From Pleurocapsa sp. PCC 7319 (GTDB lineage Bacteria > Cyanobacteriota > Cyanobacteriia > Cyanobacteriales > Xenococcaceae): DNA of 64,000 nucleotides. The position numbers and the translations under genes are program-made. This document shows, in pieces, positions 58,743 through 64,000 of this stretch. The stretch's first letter is position 1; each line of letters begins with the position of its first letter. The stretch lies in NCBI RefSeq assembly GCF_000332195.1, contig NZ_KB235922.1, positions 2,008,211 to 2,072,210 on the forward strand. The letters run 5' to 3'. The notes under the pieces were generated by a model. It was not told the DNA's origin, made no database searches, and saw only the letters and a list, made by a program, of their open reading frames with translations.

Positions 58743-59354
58743 TTGACTTTCTCTTCATCTACAAGCTAATCACCTAACAGAAGTATCCAAAAGTATAGAC
58801 ATATGGTCATTATTCATTTGCCACTTTTCATGACATGGCAATTCAAATTTAAAGACTCCAAACTTAGGCAAATTTTCATTAAAATGTGGTTTGAGCTATT
58901 TTCAGGCGATCGCCATTTTGCATAATCAGTTAAAATTTACCACTTCTAGCAAACCACCTCACAACCGCAGCAATAATAATAAAAGCTATTTGTCGCCCCT
59001 TTTTTATTTTATGACTTTAGTCCTTAAGACGGATTTTATCTTTTAGAGCATAACCGAATCATAATAATCCTTAAAAACCAAACTTTTCTACTGGGGGAAC
59101 TTTCCCCCATATGCGAAGCGGTATCCTTTAGGAGACCCCCTGTTGGGGAAGTGACGGCTTCCCCAAGCCCCTTCGTAACTGAAGTTCAGTCAAGATATCT
59201 ATTTTGCTAGTTAATTTTTACTTGAAATGATGGGTTTGATTCGCATAAGACGTAGTTTGGTTACTTTGATCAAAAAAATAAAAAAAGCTCGCTTCGCTCG
59301 CTTAAAAGGAAAAAGAAAAAAGTGCATAGGGCAAGAGTGAAAGAGAGCAAAGGG
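58743..59354. other. 612-bp spacer with dispersed repeats
   Basis: No gene was recognised. It contains the repeat element at 59091-59216, a GCTCGCTTCGCTCGCTT direct repeat (59287-59303) and T/A runs. In particular no reverse transcriptase or template repeat was found. Confidence 0.55.
59091..59216. repeat. Dispersed repeat element with conserved ends, copy B
   Basis: It shares its left end (CTGGGGGAACTTTCCCCCA) and right end (CTTCGTAACT, AAGTTCAGTCAAGATATCT, TTGCTAGTTAATT) with 16075-16296, but is about 96 bp shorter. Its centre has GCGAAGCGGTATCC and a GACCCCC/GGGGAAG-type palindrome. Confidence 0.7.
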
Positions 59355-61277
59355 CTATGTAGTCCTGGGGACGACACACACAACACGGAAACCGATATTG
59401 TCGTCACGGTTATCGCGCGTAGTGTAGTTGCGGTACGCACAACGGCAGAGGCCAGGATAGAAGGACCATGAACCACCGCGTATTACTTTTGTACCACTGC
59501 ATGACAACCATGCAGCACCATCCTGAGGTACGCCATTATAATTTTCGTTCCAATCATCAGCACACCATTCCCAAACATTACCATGCATATCATACAAACC
59601 AAAAGCATTGGGTGGAAAACTTTGTATCGAAGTAGTTTTTCCTCGAAATTTTCCTTTTGGCTCATTGGCAAAATTCCCTGGATAAACTTTGCCCTTATAC
59701 TCCCAATCGGTTCCTCGATAATTCGCTAAGTCTGTAGTGATAGTTGCGCCAAAATAAAACGGCGTATCCGTTCCTGCGCGACAAGCATATTCCCACTCTG
59801 CTTCACTAGGTAAACGATAATCTCGATCAGTTTCATTGGATAAACGAGCGCAAAATTCTACTGCATCATCCCAAGACACTTGTTCTACAGGTAAATTGTC
59901 ATCTTTAAAGTGAGATGGGTTTGATTCTAAATCTCGCAATACTTTATCCATCTCAGCAACAACTCGCCATTGAGCTTGAGTGACGGGATATCTTCCCATC
60001 AGGAGACTTGGGATATTAGCCTTGTGTCGAGGTCTTTCCCTCTTATAGCCTTCCCAATTATATTTTTTACACAGTCTAGCTATTTCCTCGTCATCTGTTC
60101 CCATCAGAAACTCTCCCCCAGATATAGAAACCATTTCCAAGGTGACGCCATTACCTAAATCTTCCCTAAAAACATCTGCTTCTTTCTTAATTCTGCTGTT
60201 TTCTATTCCTCTATCATCAACTGTAGTAACCTCGAAGGTAATTGTTTTAGTTCGGATTTGGATTTCTGCTTGTTCCAGAATAGCTTTAGAAATTTCCTCT
60301 ACTTCTAAATCACTTAATTTAAGGCTTGTCTGCAAATCTTTTAGTTGCTGCTCAAGTTGCTCATTAAAGGGGTAATATCCCTGTTCAATAGTTTGTCGTA
60401 ATACAGTTTGATAATCTTTTTTTGCTTGCTCGATTTTCCCTAATTCTGCTTCCAAAATATTATTGGCTTCTGATTCTGATATTCCTTGCTCCTTAGCAAA
60501 TGTGGCTAATTGAAACTTGGCAATAGGTGTTAAATTGCGGTCTGCTAAATACTCTTTGATTCGTTCTTGATATTCTTGAATAGAATTTGTGTTTGTTGTA
60601 ATGGTCTTATTGTGAATAGGTTGATTATTGGTTAGAGTGATATTTTGAGGAACATTTATGGTCTTTTTGAGTAAAATTGGCTTGAGATGTTCTGATAAAG
60701 TTGCTTGAGATTCAACCTTTTCAAAATCAACAGGGATCATCTTGCGATTTGGATCGGAAGTACTGGACAACTCGAACAAAATAGCGCTACGACCGAATTT
60801 AAAGGCATCATCAATAGTTCTACCGTAGCCCAAACCATCGTAAAAACCAGTTGCAAAAAAAATTGCTAAATCATCTAATACTGTATGCCTCATCCCAATG
60901 ACGTAATCGATGTGTCTCACAATCGATTTAGCTTGTATTTCTGCATAACAAGCGTTTAATAAAACACATTTGATACTAGGAAATAGAGAGAATAAATCAG
61001 CTAGAGCTTCTCCTGTAGCTGGTTTTGCTTCGCCCACTTCATTTTCTAATACTAAACCTGTATCTCCTTCTCCATGTCCAGAAAAATGAACAATATCTGG
61101 ATTTTCTTCTAGTAAAGCACGGCGCAAATCTTGGGGACGCACTGCCCACCTTTGAACAAATTCAAACTTATCGGCTAATCTCGATCTTTTTAATCCTTCT
61201 TTTATTTCTCTCGCTTCTTTCCCTAAATTTAAGCGACTGGTTGACTGGGGATTGGATGCCAGAAAGAGAATCTTCAT
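59355..61277 (-). CDS. CHAT-domain protease fused to FGE-sulfatase (SUMF1) C-type lectin domain, paralogue 1
   Basis: A 640-residue protein. The caspase-like CHAT domain (residues 1-190) has His68 in HFSGHG and Cys110 in LLNACYA, the catalytic dyad. A helical linker of about 150 residues follows, then the FGE-sulfatase/SUMF1 domain (about 385-640) starting LEMVSISGGEFLMG. The C-terminal end has a putative variable region (residues 605-626, DNA 59400-59465) between RGGSW and NIGFR, see findings. Compared with its tandem copy at 61726 it has the longer linker (ERIKEYLADRNLTPIAKFQL). Confidence 0.9.
   Translation of the reverse strand: MKILFLASNPQSTSRLNLGKEAREIKEGLKRSRLADKFEFVQRWAVRPQDLRRALLEENPDIVHFSGHGEGDTGLVLENEVGEAKPATGEALADLFSLFPSIKCVLLNACYAEIQAKSIVRHIDYVIGMRHTVLDDLAIFFATGFYDGLGYGRTIDDAFKFGRSAILFELSSTSDPNRKMIPVDFEKVESQATLSEHLKPILLKKTINVPQNITLTNNQPIHNKTITTNTNSIQEYQERIKEYLADRNLTPIAKFQLATFAKEQGISESEANNILEAELGKIEQAKKDYQTVLRQTIEQGYYPFNEQLEQQLKDLQTSLKLSDLEVEEISKAILEQAEIQIRTKTITFEVTTVDDRGIENSRIKKEADVFREDLGNGVTLEMVSISGGEFLMGTDDEEIARLCKKYNWEGYKRERPRHKANIPSLLMGRYPVTQAQWRVVAEMDKVLRDLESNPSHFKDDNLPVEQVSWDDAVEFCARLSNETDRDYRLPSEAEWEYACRAGTDTPFYFGATITTDLANYRGTDWEYKGKVYPGNFANEPKGKFRGKTTSIQSFPPNAFGLYDMHGNVWEWCADDWNENYNGVPQDGAAWLSCSGTKVIRGGSWSFYPGLCRCAYRNYTTRDNRDDNIGFRVVCVVPRTT
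59359..59375. promoter_or_regulatory. Hairpin at the 3' end of CHAT-FGE paralogue 1
   Basis: GTAGTCC (59359-59365) and GGACGAC (59369-59375) form a 7-bp stem with one mismatch and a 3-nt loop. It begins 1 nt inside the coding strand from the stop codon and matches the position of a hairpin in the second paralogue. Confidence 0.6.
59400..59465 (-). other. Putative DGR-type variable region, paralogue 1
   Basis: These 22 codons lie between the conserved RGGSW and NIGFR codons. Their variable codons are compared with paralogue 2 in the findings. Confidence 0.65.
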
Positions 61278-61438
61278 CTAGGAGAAGGTTATCTGAAGAG
61301 ATACAGAAATATTCTAACTCGATTTGAGTGATTATACTTCGGTCACTACTATAACTTGAACATCAATAAATTCTGTAAGGTTGAATCTTCTCTGAACTCC
61401 GAACTCCGAATTCTAAACTCCGAACTCCGAACTCACAT
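61278..61438. other. Spacer with GAACTCC heptamer repeats
   Basis: The part next to the CHAT-FGE start is similar to the region upstream of paralogue 2 (see findings). It continues into GAACTCC/GAATTCT heptamers at 61391-61433, the reverse complement of the GGAGTTC repeats at 11586. Confidence 0.6.
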
Positions 61439-61629
61439 TTATTCCTTGTCTAATCCTGCCAAACCCCAACCTGCGATCGCTTTGGCGATCGCATCTCGAC
61501 TAGCTTCTGCGCCAAATCCCCAAGCTAGGAGAGAAAAATAATCTCTAAAAGGGCGATCGCCAAAAGTTTCATTCTCGATATACTATTCACTAAAGCCAGC
61601 TCCAACTAACAACAGGAGAGCGATCGCCT
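61439..61629 (-). pseudogene. Remnant of a protein-coding gene with an in-frame stop
   Basis: Reading the minus strand gives AIALLLVGAGFSE, a TAG, then YIENETFGDRPFRDYFSLLAWG and on to AEASRDAIAKAIAGWGLAGL before TAA at 61439. A related tail is found at 63361-63480. The first part is cut off and the frame carries a stop, so it is a gene remnant; family unknown. Confidence 0.6.
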
Positions 61630-61725
61630 ATGGCGGTGAGCTTCGCTCAATCGCAAGACTGCAGTGGGCGGAACCCAATCGCCCGCTAAATAGAAAAGAA
61701 GTGCAGAGTGCAACAGGGTAAAAGA

Positions 61726-63306
61726 CTATGTTGCTCTAAGAGCAACGCATGCAATACGAAAACCGATATTGTTGCTACGGAGGTCGCGGGGAAAGCTGAA
61801 GCGAACCGCTGAACGGCAGACATGAGGCTCGTTGAGCCATGAACCACCGCGTATTATTTTATGGTTACTAGTTTTTAATGACCAAGCACTGCCGTCGTGA
61901 GGTGCGCCATCATAATTTTTGTGCCAATCATCAGCACACCATTCCCAGAGATTCCCATGCATATCGTATAGACCAAAAGCATTCGGTGGAAATATTCCTA
62001 CTTCTGTGGTTTCTTTTCGATATTCTCCTTTAGGTTCCTTAGCAAAATTCCCTGAATAAACTTTATCCCCATAATCCCAATCGCTTCCTCGATAATTCGC
62101 CAAGTTCGTTGTGATTGTTGCCCCAAAATAAAACGGGGTATTAGTTCCGGCGCGACAAGTGTATTCCCACTCTGCTTCACTAGGTAAACGATAATCTAGA
62201 CCAGTTCTATTGGATAAACGAGCGCAAAATTCCACTGCATCATTCCAACACACTTTTTCCACAGGTAAATTGTCATCTTGAAAGTGAGAAGGTTTTGGTT
62301 CTAAATCCCGCGATACTTTATTCATACTGGCAACAACTTGCCATTGGCTTTGAGTGACGGGGTATCGTCCCATTAAGAAACTAGGAATATTAACCTTGTG
62401 TTGTGGTCTTTCACAGTGAAACCATTCTATATCATGAATTTTGCAGAGTCTTGCTATTTCCTCATCATCTGTTCCCATCAGAAACTCTCCCCCAGGAATA
62501 GAAACCATTTCTAAGGTGACACCTTTACCTAAATCTTCGCTAAAAACTTCCGCTTCTTTGGTGATTCTGCCTGATAGATAGTTCTGTATGCGATCGCGAT
62601 ATAGTTGAATATAATTTTTGCTTGATGTTTGAGGGGAATTTGCCATCTTCACTTCGTTAGAGAACGAAATATGCGGATTAAAATTGACTAATTTTTTCAG
62701 CAAAATTGGTTTCAGGTTCTCTGGTAAAGTTGATTTGTTCTCAGTATTGGTAAAGTCAACTGGAATCATTTGGCGAGTCTTATTAGAAAAACTCGAAAGT
62801 TCCCACAAAATAGCGTTACAACCTAATTCAAAGGCATCCTCAATATTTCTGCCATATCCCAACCCATCATAAAAACCAGTAGTAAAGGAGATCGCCGCAT
62901 CATCTAAAATAGTATTCTTCATGCCAATTACATAATCAACATGTTGCACAATGGCTTGAGCTTGAACTTCTGTATAACAAGCATTGAGCAACACACACTT
63001 GATACAGGGGAATTGTATGAATAAACCGACTAATGCTTCTCCTGTTGCTGGTTTAGGTTGTCCTGCCTTATCGACCAAAACTAGACCGGCACTTCCTTTT
63101 CCATGTCCCGAAAAGTGAACAATGTCTGGATTTTCTTCTAGTAAAGCCCGACGTAAATCTCTGGGACGTACTGCCCACCGTTGGATAAATTTAAACTTGT
63201 CCGCTAATTTAGATCTTTTTAATCCTTCTTCTATTTCTTCTGCTTCTTCCTCTAAACTCAACTGACTGGTTGACAGAGGATTTGAGGATAGAAAAAGAAT
63301 TTTCAT
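61726..63306 (-). CDS. CHAT-domain protease fused to FGE-sulfatase (SUMF1) C-type lectin domain, paralogue 2
   Basis: A 526-residue protein, close to paralogue 1 (the first 110 residues differ little). His68 and Cys110 of the CHAT dyad are present. The linker is short (QLYRDRIQNYLSGRITKEAE), then the SUMF1 domain starts LEMVSIPGGEFLMG. The putative variable region is residues 491-512 (DNA 61771-61836). It reads toward paralogue 1 and both have the same orientation. Confidence 0.9.
   Translation of the reverse strand: MKILFLSSNPLSTSQLSLEEEAEEIEEGLKRSKLADKFKFIQRWAVRPRDLRRALLEENPDIVHFSGHGKGSAGLVLVDKAGQPKPATGEALVGLFIQFPCIKCVLLNACYTEVQAQAIVQHVDYVIGMKNTILDDAAISFTTGFYDGLGYGRNIEDAFELGCNAILWELSSFSNKTRQMIPVDFTNTENKSTLPENLKPILLKKLVNFNPHISFSNEVKMANSPQTSSKNYIQLYRDRIQNYLSGRITKEAEVFSEDLGKGVTLEMVSIPGGEFLMGTDDEEIARLCKIHDIEWFHCERPQHKVNIPSFLMGRYPVTQSQWQVVASMNKVSRDLEPKPSHFQDDNLPVEKVCWNDAVEFCARLSNRTGLDYRLPSEAEWEYTCRAGTNTPFYFGATITTNLANYRGSDWDYGDKVYSGNFAKEPKGEYRKETTEVGIFPPNAFGLYDMHGNLWEWCADDWHKNYDGAPHDGSAWSLKTSNHKIIRGGSWLNEPHVCRSAVRFSFPRDLRSNNIGFRIACVALRAT
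61730..61746. promoter_or_regulatory. Hairpin at the 3' end of CHAT-FGE paralogue 2
   Basis: GTTGCTC (61730-61736) and GAGCAAC (61740-61746) form a perfect 7-bp stem (8 if the T-A of the loop pairs) at the same distance from the stop codon as in paralogue 1. Confidence 0.7.
61771..61836 (-). other. Putative DGR-type variable region, paralogue 2
   Basis: These 22 codons, between RGGSW and NIGFR, align without gaps to those at 59400-59465. Confidence 0.65.
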
Positions 63307-63360
63307 CTAAGAGAATATTATTTGAAGCAATACAGAAGTATTTTAACCTGATTCAAGTGA

Positions 63361-63480
63361 TTATTCTTTATCCAGTCCTGCCAAACCCCAACCCTCGATC
63401 GCCAAAGCGATCGCCTCTCGACTAGCCTCTGCAACAAATACCCAAACCAAAAACTCAGTAAACCTATACAGGATAAGCAT
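63361..63480 (-). pseudogene. Second copy of the gene remnant (tail part)
   Basis: The frame from ATG at 63480 (MLILYRFTEFLVWVF) ends EASREAIALAIEGWGLAGLDKE and TAA at 63361. The last ~22 residues match the remnant at 61439. It overlaps the end of the gene at 63464 in another frame. The match marks this as the duplicated segment upstream of each CHAT-FGE gene. Confidence 0.55.
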
Positions 63481-64000
63481 AATAGGCAATGCCTTCAAAA
63501 TCGTATGAGGGATTATTGTCGACAAAAACCCTCTCGTCTATATTTTCAGTAAAATAGTGTGTGCCGAGAGTTGGATTATAGAAACGATAGATGGGAATTG
63601 TTCCCTCTACTTCAGTTTGATAGGCATTGAATTGACTATCTTCAAAAACATAGCGATCTATATTATCGCGTACGAAATCTTTTTCTGTTGGAGAAATGGT
63701 ATAAAAATATGTTCCAGTATCTTGATTACGAAAACGAAATACTTCTTCTCCTCCTGTTAACGGGTCTACTGAAATGTGAGATGCACCCTCAAAATTGTAA
63801 TTAGTTGGTTCGTTTAGCAGTGATTCATATTCTAAGGGATCGGCAGTGTAAAGAGGTACACCTGATATGGGATCGACAAAGCGAAATACAGTAGAACCCA
63901 TCTGAGCGTTTTCATCAGTAGCAGTCCCCTCACTGTCTAGGGAATCAGAGGCAGTAGTAGTTGAAGAAGTACTACCAAATATCTCATCAAAGCTCGCTAG
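63464..64000 (-). CDS. DUF5648-like repeat protein, 5' end beyond window
   Basis: The frame is open to the window edge (codons before the Met at 63901 read LASFDEIFGS and on), so the protein is longer than the 178 residues seen. Three repeat units (YRFYNPTLGTHYFTENIDE, FRFRNQDTGTYFYTISPTEK and FRFVDPISGVPLYTADPLEY) resemble DUF5648, often found at the C-terminus of secreted or surface proteins. A Ser/Thr-rich stretch precedes them. Function unknown. Confidence 0.75.
   Translation of the reverse strand, partial: LASFDEIFGSTSSTTTASDSLDSEGTATDENAQMGSTVFRFVDPISGVPLYTADPLEYESLLNEPTNYNFEGASHISVDPLTGGEEVFRFRNQDTGTYFYTISPTEKDFVRDNIDRYVFEDSQFNAYQTEVEGTIPIYRFYNPTLGTHYFTENIDERVFVDNNPSYDFEGIAYYAYPV

Follow-up and report, generated by a model that had tools for sequence, protein, structure and literature searches.

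Near the right end of a 64,000-nucleotide stretch of the cyanobacterium Pleurocapsa sp. PCC 7319 (contig NZ_KB235922.1; C7:2008211-2072210 of the 7,386,997-base genome, 7.39 Mb in 10 contigs and 99.99% complete), hereafter the window, lie two genes that each encode a CHAT protease-like domain together with a C-terminal formylglycine-generating enzyme (FGE)/C-type-lectin domain (genes 1 and 2; Table 1). We read the pair, at a probability of roughly three in four, as orphaned targets of a cyanobacterial diversity-generating retroelement (DGR), and probably as sensors, joined to a CHAT protease, that are now frozen. In the past, an adenine-rich template, which the templates of relatives suggest to have read ...AAC AAC AAY CCT AAY AAC TGC CGT TCA GCG..., would have been copied by an error-prone DGR reverse transcriptase (RT). 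The mutated cDNA would then have taken the place of the 3' end in both genes, so that those residues of the FGE/C-type-lectin domain that presumably face the ligand were randomised. The cassette would since have been lost, or would never have been acquired with the genes. Since no cassette was found in the assembly, both variants are probably frozen.

Each gene carries a variable block of 22 codons, placed, as in a DGR target, at the 3' end of a C-type-lectin/FGE gene. An earlier reading of the window, made from its letters without database searches (the sequence-only reading), had aligned the two blocks without gaps, and both the alignment and its coordinates proved exact. The blocks are bordered by identical DNA on either side, including the 18 nt before them (codons for IRGGSW); 15 of the 22 codons differ, 14 of these in amino acid, and the other seven are identical in DNA, while a recount by eye again finds 27 of 30 variable codons ending in C or T. 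The same residue is encoded at eight of the 22 codons, namely the seven identical ones and a silent GAT/GAC pair, and the 29 differing bases are spread 13/10/6 over codon positions 1/2/3. The additional claim of an absence of silent change stood for the seven unchanged codons but is weak as a signal alone, as 13 of 15 degenerate same-residue codons are identical within GGSW..NIGF vs 217 of 321 in the stretches of CHAT and FGE used for comparison (p=0.10). RGGSW, CR and GFR residues are also common to FGE genes that are not DGR targets.

The evidence that carries the DGR reading comes from the templates of related genomes, in which the AAC/AAT codons predicted from the two blocks are real and at whose adenines the block differences cluster. 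A genome of the same genus, G005, has a DGR locus that comprises a caspase-EAD2 gene, a VMAP-C gene, an AAA_5 ATPase (presumably MoxR-like), two FGE targets, bAvd, an RT bearing the motif IGNLTSQ, the template, and a third FGE target. This template, GAC AAC AAT CCT AAT AAC TGC CGT TCA GCG TAC CGC AAC AAC AAT ACC CGC GAT AAC CGT AAC AAC followed by AATATCGGTTT, matches the window blocks codon by codon, and has A at 21 of the 29 positions where the blocks differ and at 4 of the 37 where they are equal (p=2.8e-7). The same pair test of the window blocks over all eight templates gave p values from 2.8e-7 to 0.001, those eight belonging to a mismatch set restricted to blocks that measure 66 nt exactly and have strict flanks, 33 of them variable and eight of them templates; a looser listing holds 51 in-frame blocks of 60-75 nt, and some of the templates collected were left out of the mismatch set. 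G005's own target pairs gave 5.3e-8, 2.3e-4 and 1.3e-6, and three pairs of non-DGR FGE genes, used as controls, gave 0.0175, 0.0065 and 0.96. Taken singly, mismatches fall preferentially at template A with p from 2.3e-4 (G005) up to 0.24 for gene 1 and from 2e-5 (G022) up to 0.068 for gene 2 across the eight templates. Mismatches at other template bases are as few in both window blocks (Table 1) as in two of the three G005 targets against their own template (4/41 and 4/41; the third has 0/41), and number 17-25 of 41-45 in three non-DGR FGE genes, two from the window's genome and one from G022, against the eight templates. On these comparisons, it is the low non-A mismatch and the pair test that separate the window blocks from non-DGR FGE genes, and the pattern of a DGR target, differences at template adenines and few elsewhere, is found when relatives' templates serve as surrogates. 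That the blocks are DGR-written variable regions is thus supported.

Gene 1 further displays a signature of copying. When it is set against each of the three G005 targets, degenerate codons for shared residues agree in 22/24, 21/23 and 21/22 cases from GGSW to the gene's end, vs 70/135, 55/113 and 51/111 upstream (p 1.3e-4, 8.8e-5 and 6.5e-6, which are not independent). The G005 targets show a similar signature among themselves (p 0.022, 2.7e-4 and 0.004), and none of significance is seen between gene 1 and its relative in the genome G018 (p 0.63). Directly 3' of its variable region, gene 1 has a stretch resembling an initiation of mutagenic homing (IMH) element, whose identity to a template of another species includes third codon positions (Table 1). 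Gene 1 thus appears to retain the fresher template signature; its last rewriting may postdate that of gene 2 and may have used a template similar to the one in G005.

The sequence-only reading had proposed that the two genes are remote targets of a resident DGR, a proposal that is not supported. It fails by the condition which that reading had itself set for refutation, a genome lacking RT and template, as no RT, template, template tail or bAvd was found genome-wide. A profile of nine cyanobacterial DGR RTs had no match in the whole genome at E<=0.001. The RVT_1 model (PF00078), which recovers the G005 DGR RT at 69 bits, had five hits. Three of them are RVT_N/GIIM/HNH group II intron RTs of two kinds, one kind being present as two identical copies, and the remaining two are short fragments; the IGxxxSQ motif occurs in none of the five, one fragment bearing QGG.CSP and the other being too short to show the motif. 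The G005 template DNA matched the two blocks (E 4.8e-32 and 3e-16), its next hit in the whole genome lying at E 0.485, and the template tail beyond base 34 found in this genome the end of gene 1, a dispersed short repeat and others at E 0.02 or worse. The best match to G005 bAvd in the window's genome had an E of 0.19, and the N-terminal part of G005's 936-aa target found nothing there, an empty result that carries little weight. A candidate template at C7:1144914, a pattern match with two mismatches, was rejected on the grounds that its surrounding DNA is not template-like. The DGR origin of the blocks stands nonetheless, because the template survives in relatives. As a separate observation, a repeat of ~28 nt lying 3' of the G005 template (L113:9229-9256, query bases 200-227) accounts for 24 of the 32 tail hits in the window's genome, 15 of them at E<0.01.

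Several points weigh against reading the pair as orphaned, frozen targets. Over both genes and all eight templates, the A-versus-non-A p values run from 2e-5 to 0.24, each template being a surrogate from another species, and a weaker template-A excess is seen in non-DGR FGE genes too (24 tests, p 0.0027 to 0.67), so that A-bias alone is not specific. Gene 2 matches just 11 template bases 3' of its block and, when set against two of the G005 targets, gives no signature of copying (11/17 vs 66/131, p=0.20; 11/17 vs 56/119, p=0.14), and silent-codon homogenisation between genes 1 and 2 is not significant (p=0.62). The comparison set holds one genome per species, and the blocks taken as frozen are read from a single strain. 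Two runs of 100 N occur in 221 kb of loci from the window's genome, overlaps counted. Signalling through the CHAT domains of both proteins is presumed.

Some of these points would suit ordinary, diverged FGE/SUMF1 paralogues, in which the blocks would be a fast-evolving surface loop set among conserved framework residues: non-DGR FGE genes share RGGSW, CR and GFR, their template-A excess reaches p=0.0027, and the two genes lack significant homogenisation at silent sites. This account is largely refuted and very improbable in view of the pair test (p=2.8e-7 vs 0.0065 or weaker in non-DGR pairs), the 4 of 41 non-A mismatches vs 17 or more, and the 35 bases of gene 1 that equal another species' template, third codon positions included. 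The N runs bear instead on whether the pair could be live remote targets, served by an RT and template that sit in an assembly gap or on a replicon missing from the assembly, or that the strain still has although the culture sequenced had lost them. Remote targets are known for DGRs of cyanobacteria (PMC7517822, in part), and gene 1 keeps both its IMH-like stretch and a hairpin. This alternative is improbable all the same: none of the four components sought was found in a genome that is 99.99% complete, and the cassettes of G005, G022 and G023 sit directly between or beside FGE targets, yet no N run is found in the loci around the seven FGE hits of the window's genome (~1.5 kb flanks). There is a small chance of a cassette hidden in an assembly gap.

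How the two orphaned genes came to be without a cassette can be viewed against the 60 genomes compared. A full-length RT of the G005-type DGR family (>500 bits) is present in 12, and template-like DNA at E<=1e-6 in 19, ten of which, the window's included, are without a full-length RT, one of them (G024) matching the RT distantly, at 120 bits. All ten except the window's genome are drafts split into some 230 contigs or more, four of these nine being <=81% complete, and the window pair would therefore be the cleanest case. Among the 13 genomes of the genus, its own included, the RT occurs in one (G005) and template-like DNA in three, so that loss of the cassette and acquisition without it fit alike. 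The latter, a sub-case of the orphaned-target reading whose odds overlap with it, would have the genes arrive by horizontal transfer, already diversified, from a DGR-bearing cyanobacterium into a lineage that never had the cassette. This is less likely than not; the rarity of the RT and template within the genus would suit it, as would the closest full-length relative of gene 1 among the matches listed from the 60 genomes, which belongs to another genus (G018, 63% identity), yet the block end of gene 1 matches the template and target of the same-genus G005 and not those of G018.

A broader and tentative possibility is that lineages of this cyanobacterial order repeatedly drop the RT and keep diversified FGE sensors as fixed receptors. 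In G026 (L116:6824-8537), the template alignment begins inside the repeat, its 5' end is missing, and an IS605 OrfB gene occupies the expected place of the RT, which likely reflects destruction of the cassette. In G015, a 46-aa piece of RT neighbours an FGE target, but the contig ends no more than about 160 bases away, making an assembly fault possible. Damage to the RT is, as judged from these sequences, probable in both genomes, which also favours the reading of the window pair as orphaned targets. Two other candidates were set aside: a template without RT in G017 lies near a contig end, so the absence of the RT is uninformative, and the RT beside the target of G001 (L121), a 632-aa open reading frame (ORF) 24.6% identical to the DGR RT, was assigned, on its length and N-terminus, to the group II intron RTs.

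The domain composition of the two proteins is consistent with a sensor coupled to a protease. Pfam CHAT and FGE-sulfatase both exceed their cut-offs in each, and a CHAT domain is found in each at 30.4 and 32.0 bits against a curated cut-off of 24. SGHG and NAC motifs, which we take to be catalytic, are present in both CHAT domains. Both proteins match the PADLOC model 'chat' (E 9.1e-11 and 5.9e-11), with gene 1 giving two additional weak PDC-S48 matches. Among 25 matches to solved structures, the one named variable protein is Treponema denticola variable protein 1 (PDB 2y3c, E=2.1e-19), matched by sequence as a member of the same FGE-type domain family; we take it to be a DGR target without a CHAT domain, unlike the window genes. 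FGE/SUMF1 itself (PDB 2aii and 1y1e) belongs to the same domain family at E about 1e-22, and two of its cysteines (2aii) presumably serve in catalysis. Unlike FGE/SUMF1, the window proteins have a variable position where the first of these would lie, occupied by F in gene 1 (from the 2aii alignment) and by N in gene 2 (by position); the pair of catalytic cysteines of a formylglycine-generating enzyme is thus not found when gene 1 is aligned to 2aii, and, the first position being variable, FGE catalysis is unlikely. A predicted structure of the FGE domain had a mean predicted local distance difference test (pLDDT) score of 67.9, with much of the variable region below 50, and was not used. Most likely, both proteins act as protease-linked sensors of fixed specificity, in line with what is proposed for related proteins (PMC10907252 and PMC7517822, both in part), in which binding of a ligand would trigger proteolysis by the caspase-like CHAT domain, or cell death.

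Comparable proteins have been described in cyanobacteria. DGR targets reported in 2020 (PMC7517822, in part) likewise have a CLec module at the C-terminus, its variable region encoded at the gene's 3' end, and modular N-terminal domains, including CHAT-like ones; one paralogue in PCC 7120, all3226, has remnant homology between template repeat and variable region with no nearby RT, and the removal of diversifying parts once a good variant has been selected was suggested there. Unlike the window pair, for which no DGR component was found genome-wide, the remote proteins of that study are tied to a DGR in the same genome. In multicellular bacteria, DGRs diversify putative antigen sensors (Dore et al. 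2024, PMC10907252, in part), one target of which combines CHAT and TIR domains. The MoxR/VMAP ternary systems of cyanobacterial clade 5E in that study resemble the G005 locus. At one of its loci no diversification was observed, and at others components are disrupted. Several DGRs persist in the genome of that study, unlike the one studied here, and no MoxR/VMAP gene was seen beside the window pair. Among the papers listed in literature searches, none, going by its title and the opening of its abstract, describes a genome with DGR targets but without a DGR, and neither 'retroelement' nor 'reverse transcriptase' occurs in the available part of PMC7381351. The remnant paralogue and proposed removal in PMC7517822, along with the disrupted loci of PMC10907252, make the kind of gene described here one already known. 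If the cassette is truly gone, the pair would nevertheless be a natural snapshot of DGR leftovers, two fixed variants, of different apparent age, of a sensor linked to a protease, and the comparison of such orphans with live targets would show whether selection keeps a chosen variant, an idea raised in PMC7517822. The pair would then also be a warning that DGR surveys which start from the RT can overlook genuine targets.

The 3' ends of the genes carry inverted repeats, of which one type is a possible homing signal in cyanobacteria. A 5-bp stem with a 4-nt loop, including the stop codon and beginning 33-37 bases past the block, was found in gene 1 and 15 more of the 30 variable regions of DGR type, but in none of the 8 templates and none of the 3 non-DGR FGE genes, pairing being scored on the bottom strand and G·T counted as a pair; the 30 are the 33 regions minus the three non-DGR FGE genes (L013, L014 and L129). 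The arms vary on both sides (GGACT/AGCCC, GTACT/AGCAC). Upon shuffling of the right arms, 0 of 5000 shuffles reached the observed 15/30, a result that ignores relatedness and so is not a true probability. Gene 2 lacks this hairpin and has a different, perfect 7-bp inverted repeat. In BPP-1, a hairpin in the corresponding position is required for efficient homing (Guo et al. 2011, PMC3240598, in part), there too an inverted repeat directly 3' of the variable region, and the published drawing of it marks the stop codon; unlike the 5-bp stem and ACAT-like loop of 4 nt in the cyanobacterial candidate, that of BPP-1 has 7-10 bp with GRNA. Apart from these counts, a conserved sequence that spans the stop codon and continues past it, often ...ATAGCCCTTT..., forms the short hairpin in targets and not in the eight templates, and such 3' ends are seen in L054, L055, L059, L064, L085, L091, L095, L097, L113, L115, L118, L148, L170 and L223, from several cyanobacteria.

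Table 1. Coordinates of the two CHAT–FGE genes, their variable regions and adjoining features, numbered from the first base of the window.
Feature	Position	Strand	Evidence
Gene 1: CHAT protease-like domain, linker and C-terminal FGE/C-type-lectin domain, 640 aa	59355..61277	-	ORF; Pfam CHAT 3.5e-7, FGE-sulfatase 1.2e-56
Gene 2: CHAT and FGE/C-type-lectin domain, 526 aa	61726..63306	-	ORF; Pfam
Variable region 1, 22 codons	59400..59465	-	13/25 template-A and 4/41 non-A mismatches to G005 template, p=2.3e-4
Variable region 2, 22 codons	61771..61836	-	15/25 template-A and 4/41 non-A mismatches to G022 template, p=2e-5
IMH-like stretch adjoining variable region 1 on its 3' side; first 35 bases equal G005 template, then divergence	59365..59399	-	alignment
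Short hairpin GGACT(ACAT)AGCCC that contains the stop codon, in register with those of other variable regions	59352..59365	-	sequence comparison
Alternative, overlapping hairpin TGTCGTCC(CCA)GGACTACA, one mismatch	59358..59376	-	shuffle p=0.03 for this sequence, uncorrected
Perfect 7-bp hairpin GTTGCTC(TTA)GAGCAAC 3' of variable region 2	61730..61746	-	shuffle p=0.005 for this sequence, uncorrected
Remnant of an upstream gene's 3' end before gene 1, 189 nt, 93% identical	61439..61627		sequence comparison
Second remnant of the same gene end before gene 2, 86 nt, 87% identical	63360..63445		sequence comparison

At the DNA level, genes 1 and 2 are 72% identical in the CHAT part and 82% in the FGE part. 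Remnants of one gene's 3' end stand ahead of both (Table 1), which suggests that local duplication shaped the site, and the intact gene from which this end recurs lies at L285:2996-4558 (-). The remnants, at 93% and 87% identity, appear younger than the split between the two CHAT–FGE genes. A GDSL lipase with a C-terminal DUF5648 domain (L285:1677-2822 (-), overlapping the window at 63464-64000) separates gene 2 from the gene that supplied the duplicated end, and perhaps replaces a third copy.

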